Source of the DNA: Chloroflexota bacterium
GTDB taxonomy: Bacteria > Chloroflexota > Anaerolineae > B4-G1 > DUEL01
Assembly: GCA_014874475.1 (NCBI GenBank)
Contig: JADBJJ010000016.1
Span: 1-64,000, forward strand
Reading direction: 5' to 3'
Length of the DNA stretch: 64,000 nt
Shown: positions 61,279-63,685 of the stretch, in pieces
Layout: the number at the start of each line of letters is the position of its first letter
Numbering within the stretch: the first letter of the stretch is position 1
Notes under the pieces: generated by a model
The model's database searches: none
The model's input: only the letters and a program-made list of their open reading frames with translations
What the model was told of the DNA's origin: nothing
Program-made: the position numbers and the translations under genes

Positions 61279-62402
61279 CAGTTCTCCTCCAGCAGTCGTT
61301 CCATCACCTCCCGGACGGTACGGGCGCACCGCTCCCAGGAGAATCGGCGCACGTTGACAAAGCCCCGCTCCACCAATTCCTGGCGCAGGTCCGGGTTGCT
61401 CTCCAGCCGGGCCATAGCGTCGGCCAGCGCAGCGACGTCTTCAGGATGGACCTGGAGGGCTCCATCCCCGGCGACCTCCGGCAGGCTGGACGTGCTGGAG
61501 CAGATGACGGGGCACCCGCAGGCCTGAGCCTCCAGGATCGGCAGACCGAACCCTTCATATAGGGAGGGGAAGACGAAGGCCAGCGCGCCGCTGAGCAGCG
61601 GCGCCCGGTCTTCTGGACGGACGTATCCGGGGCAGAGGACGCGCCCTTCCAGCCCCAGACGGCGGATCAGGGCGAAGAGGTCATCCGCCAGCCAGCCCCG
61701 CTGGCCCGCCAGGACCAGGGTCGCCCGCGTGGAAAGTTGTGAGAAGGCCAGCACCAGGCGGGCAAGATTCTTGCGGGGTTGCAGCGTCCCCAGGTACAGA
61801 AAGTACTCCCCGGGGATACCGTAGCGGTCCCGGACGGCGGCCAGAATCGCCGGATCGCGCACCGGGGCTAGGGACTCATCATAGCCGGGATAGGCGACGG
61901 TCACCTTCGCCGGAGAGATGCCGTAGATGCGGGCCAGGTCGGCCTGCGTGGCCTCCGAGTCGGCCAGGACGTGGGTGGCGGCCCGGGCGTTCCAGCGAGT
62001 GGAAAGGTCCAGGTAGACCCGCTGAAATCGGGTGTGGGCTCGGGGGAAGTATCGGTAGCCCAGGTCGTGGATCGTCACCAGACTGCGGCGGGGGTGGACG
62101 GGCGGCAGGACGTGCGCGGGGACAAACAGCAAATCGGGCGGACGGCGGGCCATCTCCCAGGATAGCCGGATATGTGTCCACAGGCGCGGGAAGGGAATCA
62201 CGCGGAGATCGGCCTGGAGGAACAGTTGCTCCGGCGGTGCATGGCGAAAATAGAGGCAAACGCGCCAGGGAGGGCTTGTAGAGAGCAAAGCCCGGATCAG
62301 GTGGAGCGAGTACGTTTCCGTCCCTGTTGGCCGGGGAGAGACAGCGCGGCTGGCGTCTATCCCGACGACCGGCACCCGGCTATTTTGCCTTCTGTTTTCC
62401 AC
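61278..62402 (-). CDS. GT4-family glycosyltransferase
   Basis: A 374-residue GT-B enzyme: GIDASRAVSPRPTGTETYSLHLIRAL, LVTIHDLGYRYFP, YFLYLGTLQPRKNLARLV, VFPSLYEGFGLPILEAQACGCPVICS. The E-x7-E motif is present. Start uncertain: GTG 62402 overlaps the membrane protein by 23 bases; a GTG at 62372 is possible. Coupled with the WecG-type gene, so the two may add successive sugars to a lipid-linked glycan. Confidence 0.88.
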   Translation of the reverse strand: MENRRQNSRVPVVGIDASRAVSPRPTGTETYSLHLIRALLSTSPPWRVCLYFRHAPPEQLFLQADLRVIPFPRLWTHIRLSWEMARRPPDLLFVPAHVLPPVHPRRSLVTIHDLGYRYFPRAHTRFQRVYLDLSTRWNARAATHVLADSEATQADLARIYGISPAKVTVAYPGYDESLAPVRDPAILAAVRDRYGIPGEYFLYLGTLQPRKNLARLVLAFSQLSTRATLVLAGQRGWLADDLFALIRRLGLEGRVLCPGYVRPEDRAPLLSGALAFVFPSLYEGFGLPILEAQACGCPVICSSTSSLPEVAGDGALQVHPEDVAALADAMARLESNPDLRQELVERGFVNVRRFSWERCARTVREVMERLLEEN

Positions 62403-62904
62403 CCAACGTGCCCCGGAGGAGCAGAATCAGGCCGGCGATAATGAGCAATGCTGGCCATAAGCGGCCAATCTCCTGCAGGGTGTTGGGTCCGAAGAGATGA
62501 AGGTTGACGGCGATGTACACCCCACCGAAGATGAGGCCCACAATGGCCAGAAAGAGGACTCCCCAATCTCGGAATCCTTCGGCGATCCACATAGCCAGGA
62601 ATGAGATTCCGGCGATGACGATAAAGGCGGGCCACCAGATTCGCAGGATAGCGTAGTTCTGGTCGGTGAGGGTTACAAGGAGAAGCAGGAGGCCACTCAG
62701 CGTCAGGGTGACTCCCCAGAAGACCCGGGTAGACTCTCGCTGAGGGGTCCGGATGTACGCAGTTAGGAGTGTGATCCCGCCTGCTATTATGGCGATCGGC
62801 CACAGGCGGTCCAGGCCAGGGAGTTGAGGGTAGAAGGCTCCCAGCAAGGAGTACATCCCGATCAGGATCAGGATCAGGCCCAGAAGCACGGTTCCCTTAC
62901 GCAT
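62380..62904 (-). CDS. LiaF-type/DUF5668-like membrane protein
   Basis: A 174-residue protein with about six membrane helices in three similar blocks, each with a Trp-Pro pair (RLWPIAIIAGGITLL, WWPAFIVIAGISFL, RLWPALLIIAGLILLLRG). The repeated WP...I.AG pattern is typical of the LiaF/DUF5668 transmembrane region. It ends in a basic tail (GGKQKAK). No soluble domain. Role unknown; the GT4 gene starts inside its end. Confidence 0.8.
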   Translation of the reverse strand: MRKGTVLLGLILILIGMYSLLGAFYPQLPGLDRLWPIAIIAGGITLLTAYIRTPQRESTRVFWGVTLTLSGLLLLLVTLTDQNYAILRIWWPAFIVIAGISFLAMWIAEGFRDWGVLFLAIVGLIFGGVYIAVNLHLFGPNTLQEIGRLWPALLIIAGLILLLRGTLGGKQKAK

Positions 62905-62951
62905 TTTCGCTCCCGATGTGGAGAGGGAAGATAGATGGGGCTTCTTTTACA

Positions 62952-63179
62952 GCGGCAGCCAGAGGTTACATCCAGGTCTCTGCCTGGCGCTCAACCGCCA
63001 GGCTCCCTCTAGGAAGTCCCTCAGGGCTAAAACTCCTCGCTCACCGGCTTATACTGCTCCTCCAGGCACTCCGAAGAGCCCGGAGAGTCTTGTTTTGAGC
63101 CCGGGCGTTTGCATCCGAGCCCTGAGAACTGCCATTACAGCATTCTGGAAGATTGCCTGGTGTAGCCAGAGGCTGCCGC
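62952..63179. ncRNA. Candidate structured RNA (strand not determined)
   Basis: About 228 bases without a gene that fold into a closed structure: an outer 9-bp stem (62952-62960 with 63171-63179), an 8-bp hairpin (62982-62989 with 62996-63003), a central 9-bp perfect stem (63020-63028 with 63118-63126) and a 5-bp hairpin inside (63069-63073 with 63081-63085). The size, rod shape and central opening recall 6S RNA, but I cannot match its sequence. Pairing is the same on either strand. No clear promoter is seen; a short GGGCG/CGCCC stem with a T-rich tail near 63185-63215 could end a plus-strand transcript. It fills the only gene-free stretch (about 330 bases) at this end. Confidence 0.4.
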
Positions 63180-63232
63180 CGCAACGGGCGATCCGCCCCG
63201 CAAATTTTCTCAATTTCTGGCAGGAAGGATGG

Positions 63233-63685
63233 TCAGGTTGTGCTGGCCTGTTCTAGGGCCTGGATTTTGTGCACCCGGTCGGTATGGCGTCCGCCGGCAA
63301 AGCGGCTTTGCAGAAATGCTTGCACAATATCCAGCGCCAGGCCAGCCCCCAGCACCCGTCCGCCCAGGCAGAGGATGTTCGCATCGTTGTGCTCCCGGGC
63401 CATCCGGGCCATATACCCGTTAGTGGCGACGGCGGCCCGGATTCCTTTCACCTTGTTGGCTGTGATGCTCATCCCGATGCCCGTTCCACAGATCAGGATA
63501 CCCAGGTCGGCCTGCCTAGTTGCCACCGCGCGAGATACTCTCACAGCGTAATCGGGATAGTCTACCGATTCATCGCTTTGAGTCCCCATATCCTCAACGG
63601 GGTAGCCGGATGCCTGGAGGAAGCGAACGATCTCTTCCTTCAGAGCAAAACCAGCATGGTCGGCGCCGATCGCGATTCGTTCCAT
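63233..63685 (-). CDS. rpiB: Ribose-5-phosphate isomerase B
   Basis: A 150-residue protein with IAIGADHAGFALKEEI (D9, H10), SVDYPDYAV, GILICGTGIGMSITANKVKGIRAA (C66 region) and REHNDANILCLGGR (family Asn). It interconverts ribose 5-phosphate and ribulose 5-phosphate in the pentose phosphate pathway. Allose-6-phosphate isomerase activity is possible for relatives. It follows the 31-residue ribosomal-type protein by 21 bases and shares its promoter. Confidence 0.95.
   Translation of the reverse strand: MERIAIGADHAGFALKEEIVRFLQASGYPVEDMGTQSDESVDYPDYAVRVSRAVATRQADLGILICGTGIGMSITANKVKGIRAAVATNGYMARMAREHNDANILCLGGRVLGAGLALDIVQAFLQSRFAGGRHTDRVHKIQALEQASTT

Follow-up and report, generated by a model that had tools for sequence, protein, structure and literature searches.

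The locus and its fold

Between rpiB and a membrane protein gene, the genome of a Thermoflexus-like bacterium carries 228 gene-free bases (62952..63179) that fold like a structured RNA. Does this spacer hold an RNA gene, or did its stems arise in another way? We examined it within a 64,000-nucleotide stretch of contig JADBJJ010000016.1, called the window below. The neighbors were as described in a first-pass annotation of the sequence: by Pfam, rpiB (ribose-5-phosphate isomerase B; 63233..63685, PF02502) lies upstream and a LiaF-like membrane protein gene (62380..62904, PF18917 and PF22570) downstream in the same sense, both on the minus strand. The region's lack of coding sense was likewise borne out, as the 112-aa plus-strand ORF that spans it had no Pfam match; a coding remnant was thereby ruled out.

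The three perfect stems that had been reported are all present: 62952-62960/63171-63179 (9 bp), 62982-62989/62996-63003 (8 bp), and 63020-63028/63118-63126 (9 bp). They had been described as nested, which is correct for the outer stem, since it encloses both others, but not for the 8-bp hairpin and the inner 9-bp stem, which lie side by side. On neither strand did any of 200 dinucleotide shuffles fold as well as the 228-base region (z = -5.7 on plus, -4.4 on minus). For the 198-bp insert defined below, taken alone, z was -3.6 (plus) and -2.8 (minus), with 1/200 shuffles equally good on each strand; the excess of the full region is thus due in part to its outer arms.

The first-pass annotation favored 6S RNA or a new RNA. 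The resemblance to 6S RNA (RF00013) is superficial, a long rod with an open middle. Covariance-model searches with Rfam, 6S included, gave no match at gathering level at the locus: the only match at gathering score in the window was a tRNA elsewhere, and relaxing the search of the region to E ≤ 10 returned low-scoring matches, none of them 6S. Twenty loci with the relatives' copies yielded 12 weak Rfam matches, 0/12 at gathering score. The genome's own 6S RNA was found at another locus (L267, G000:C27:211650-211827, 77 bits), and 6S RNA was found in 7/7 genomes of the genus. On these grounds 6S and the other Rfam families were ruled out. A sigma-70-like promoter was not found in 62800-63320. 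We also rejected a terminator role, the scan giving 2 weak sites against 0.5 expected.

An insertion splits a host hairpin

A feature absent from the first-pass annotation proved informative: a perfect 9-bp direct repeat, AGCCAGAGG, lies exactly at both junctions (62957..62965 and 63164..63172) of a 198-bp segment (62966..63163, minus strand in the rpiB sense). Removing this insert together with one repeat leaves a perfect 9-bp hairpin, GCGGCAGCC-TCT-GGCTGCCGC, whose arms now lie apart at 62952..62960 and 63171..63179. Next to the putative target-site duplication, the ends of the insert form an imperfect repeat of about 10 bp (TACA-CCAGG versus TACATCCAGG).

The corresponding spacer was then compared among relatives. 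In the congeners G001, G003, and G004 both flanks could be aligned, but the spacer lacks the 198 bp and has an uninterrupted GCGGC-type hairpin at the place instead (the G001 contig is apparently that of record L009, Thermoflexus sp. RSWP15). In G005 and G006 the spacer between rpiB and the LiaF-like gene is short, unalignable, and free of the insert, and hardly any gap separates the two genes in G007 and G012. G002 was left out of this comparison, its locus ending at a contig end.

A 9-nt direct repeat alone is common, being found in 250/2000 shuffles and in 47/209 window tiles. We therefore asked of 9-nt repeat pairs spaced 100-400 nt apart that their removal restore a hairpin of at least 9 bp. 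In the window 1/299 pairs did so, namely the AGCCAGAGG pair, versus 2/2255 pairs in 79 other loci. Because such hairpin-restoring pairs are rare, unlike bare 9-nt repeats, we conclude that the outer 9-bp stem is a host hairpin split by an insertion.

The insert is related to a dispersed hairpin array

By blastn the insert was single-copy in its own genome, with short matches only. No near-identical copy was found in 60 relatives (again short matches only), and among 396 genomes of the class three had a match, namely the insert itself and two matches of 34-38 bp. Plasmids and phages likewise gave short matches only, and simple motif searches of the window and its own genome found no further copies. 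A recent multi-copy repeat recognizable by DNA similarity was thus ruled out.

One of the short matches, on contig C40 of G004, led to a dispersed composite of hairpins. Positions 42-186 of the insert aligned to the G004:C40 copy with a score of 84, where 1000 shuffles averaged 27.5 and peaked at 50; the best alignment (score 114) joined positions 26-197 to a copy at G005:C207. With the G004 copy as query, relatives were found in 10/13 family genomes, and the G005 copy gave the same count. Genome G004 also has many copies of a related array whose outer stems differ (e.g. L089, L148, L155, L160; 45 blastn matches in that genome).

From 11 aligned G005 copies (alignment A1), without the window sequence, we built a covariance model, R1, of 144 positions and 35 pairs; two of the 13 copies listed for it had been dropped, L209 for an odd 5' part and L213, from the window's own genome, deliberately. 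In the window R1 matched 62981-63122 on the minus strand over all 144 positions with 60 bits and E 4.8e-12 (2.3e-10 in the genome-wide search), E-values that are rough because the calibration was short. The runner-up in the window reached 13.1 bits, and the best score in 466,474 control bases was 11.2 bits; these bases came from 79 rpiB loci, of which the record titles place nearly all in other phyla. The insert's membership in the family is one of profile-level similarity.

Matches to R1 at E ≤ 0.01 occurred in 11/13 family genomes, numbering, with both strands of the same place counted, 14 in the window's own genome and up to 55 in G004. At E ≤ 1e-6 and with stricter filters, at least 15 of 199 class genomes had matches. 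The best other copy in the own genome lies at G000:C5:152534-152677, in a spacer of about 280-300 bp that measures about 50-65 bp in G003 and G004, taken as gaps between matching flanks. By this comparison the own-genome site is occupied, whereas the orthologous spacer of both congeners lacks the copy. A target duplication was not visible at it. Just past the window's right end there is a further partial copy of the module (L217, G000:C26:64014-64045), which lies near a small basic protein gene upstream of rpiB.

A 5' and a 3' hairpin (H1 and H4) frame the long inverted repeat (H2/H3) at the center of the module. In the window copy (62981..63122, minus strand), H4 occupies 62982..63003 and its perfect 8-bp stem is the one reported in the first-pass annotation, while the inner 9-bp stem joins an arm within the H3 part (CTCAGGGCT, 63020..63028) to one at the H1 edge (AGCCCTGAG, 63118..63126). 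The window copy retains 24 of the 35 model pairs, with 2 more gapped, and on this count is partly decayed.

Covariation of the family stems

Covariation was assessed in a MAFFT alignment of 35 short-form copies (A3). Long forms, L165, L172, the own-genome copies L228-L230 and L232, the window copy, opposite-strand matches, and duplicates were left out. In these copies, which are related to one another and were found with a structure model, the stems contained 81 cells changed on both sides, whereas shuffles gave 33.5 and slid controls no more than 15. The local-hairpin version gave 61 double-change cells versus 22.9. The central arms covary across the loop. In the local hairpins overall, G-U changes (33) and A-C changes (26) were balanced; H1 and H4 leaned to G-U (23 versus 9 A-C) and H2/H3 to A-C (17 versus 10 G-U). 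As the stem changes have no overall strand preference, a strand-specific RNA function is not supported by these alignments.

This strong covariation, together with the spread of copies across genera, speaks for the best surviving alternative: that selection acted on the family at the RNA level, perhaps in mRNA tails or through recognition by a protein, while transposition dispersed it, the present copy still working on the transcript from rpiB to the LiaF-like gene. We nevertheless judge it improbable. About a third of the model pairs are gone from the window copy, and copies gave scores on either strand. G-U and A-C changes are balanced in total, although H1 and H4 lean to G-U and H2/H3 to A-C. 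A role in mRNA tails fits poorly, because 9/21 classifiable intergenic copies lie between divergent genes, a weak test given its naive ORF-based gene calling, which placed 21/47 copies 'in ORF', the window's false ORF included.

Ends, target duplications, and transposases

Among 46 copies with usable flanks, 8 had end repeats unmatched by any of 200 shuffles, the result for the window copy including the host hairpin. The sequences of these repeats differ, as in GGTAGTCTCCCT..GTGTTG and ATACCAA..GTTTGTT. In G011, G009, and G008 the module lies inside elements with similar terminal repeats of the GGTRGTCTCCCT...GTGTTG type (L239, L146, L142, L175). Since terminal repeats differ among the carrying elements, one module rides in different ends. 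When 20 other copies were scanned for direct repeats, none had a convincing target duplication. No transposase could be linked to the element; Y1_Tnp (PF01797) had 0 matches in the own genome and matches in 5/13 family genomes.

Dispersed hairpin arrays are also what a REP or BIME-type repeat mobilized by a RAYT (Y1) transposase would produce. Such repeats are dispersed extragenic palindromes occurring in arrays and reported in Chloroflexi (PMC3733652, PMC12306157), with GTAG-tagged REPs among those of this phylum (PMC3733652). The module differs in size, at about 105-145 bp against the 20-40 bp of REPs. The insert has a putative target duplication, unlike REPs, and by eye no GTAG tag was seen at the stems of the A3 consensus. 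No RAYT-type gene was found in the own genome and only 5/13 family genomes have a Y1_Tnp match; we rejected a RAYT-driven REP for want of Y1_Tnp in the own genome, and consider a repeat of this type very unlikely.

Interpretation

We interpret the stretch as a partly decayed copy of a non-autonomous, hairpin-rich, MITE-like palindromic mobile DNA repeat, with a probability of about 0.83. Small hairpin-rich mobile repeats are common in bacteria. By transposition the element would have entered a small hairpin in the spacer of rpiB and the LiaF-like gene, duplicating 9 bp of its target. The host hairpin would have been cut internally, so that its arms now enclose the 198-bp insert and mimic the outer stem of a long rod. 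The middle of the insert is a diverged, partly decayed copy of the H1-H2/H3-H4 module. Movement was probably by staggered-cut transposition, with a transposase that an IS may have supplied in trans. Once in place, the element would share a transcript with rpiB and the genes downstream, folding within this mRNA; its local effect is likely small.

Several properties expected of a MITE are found. The insert is short and non-coding (198 bp, the spanning ORF having no Pfam match). It has an apparent target-site duplication, in which the restored hairpin accompanies a 9-bp repeat at both junctions of a kind that, when bare, also occurs in 250/2000 shuffles. Relatives are dispersed (14 matches in the own genome, both strands counted, and 11/13 family genomes). 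Against this reading, the end repeats of the insert are short and imperfect, those of other copies differ or are lacking, and no clear target duplication was seen at these. Nor did the own genome or 60 relatives contain a near-identical copy of the insert. The decay of the module (24/35 pairs) sits oddly with perfect direct repeats and perfect host arms, and we also count against it that the family stems covary, as those of simple junk would not.

A close parallel is QMITE2 of Coxiella burnetii, one of the known bacterial MITEs that have 7-9 bp duplications and structured transcripts (PMC10969869). QMITE2 is likewise non-coding, about 200 bp long, intergenic, flanked by 7-9 bp direct repeats, and predicted to give a structured transcript. 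Its terminal inverted repeats measure 23-29 bp (PMC10969869); the insert differs from it in its imperfect end repeats of about 10 bp and in that near-identical copies were not found.

The remaining alternatives fare worse than the preceding ones. That a long ancestral element was deleted in the relatives, not gained here, is highly improbable: direct repeats can mediate a precise deletion, yet the loss would be needed in every relative examined, leaving an intact hairpin in G001, G003, and G004, and a gain in a single lineage is simpler. Least credible of all is the RNA-gene reading that follows the leading proposal of the first-pass annotation: 6S or some other small RNA, made from a promoter of its own and acting as a free molecule. 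Two results support it, a rod-like fold better than 200/200 shuffles and compensatory changes at the family level. Against it stand the lack of an Rfam match, the occurrence of the true 6S at another locus of this genome and in 7/7 of the genus, the lack of a sigma-70-like promoter in 62800-63320, the absence of the insert from the site in relatives, the dispersed copies, and the lack of an overall strand preference among the pair changes (33 G-U, 26 A-C).

That annotation had itself offered a decayed palindromic element as its second choice, and it is this choice that prevails, given dispersed relatives in the genome and family, absence from the congeners' orthologous site, and the direct-repeat duplication. 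It had further held that many dispersed copies would speak against an RNA, and such copies exist; a lack of compensatory changes in relatives, which it named as another such sign, was not observed, as the dispersed family does show them.

On this reading a false RNA-gene candidate is eliminated, and a single event, the splitting of a hairpin by an insertion, accounts for the odd enclosing stems. We place the family among dispersed palindromic MITE-like repeats. It seems to be undescribed: the module had no Rfam match, and no description was found in the literature searched, including passages of PMC12306157, PMC3733652, PMC10969869, and PMC10907252. Being missing from Rfam, it could mislead RNA and terminator predictions in related genomes. 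The covarying stems raise the question of whether the folded form is selected or copied along by transposition. A doubtful but conceivable answer is that the module represents an undescribed mobile element, found in Thermoflexia and other lines of the class, whose structure is under selection, with compensatory change keeping the stems while the module rides in differing ends; this would suggest that the folded form, as single-stranded DNA or RNA, is recognized by a mobilizing or host protein.
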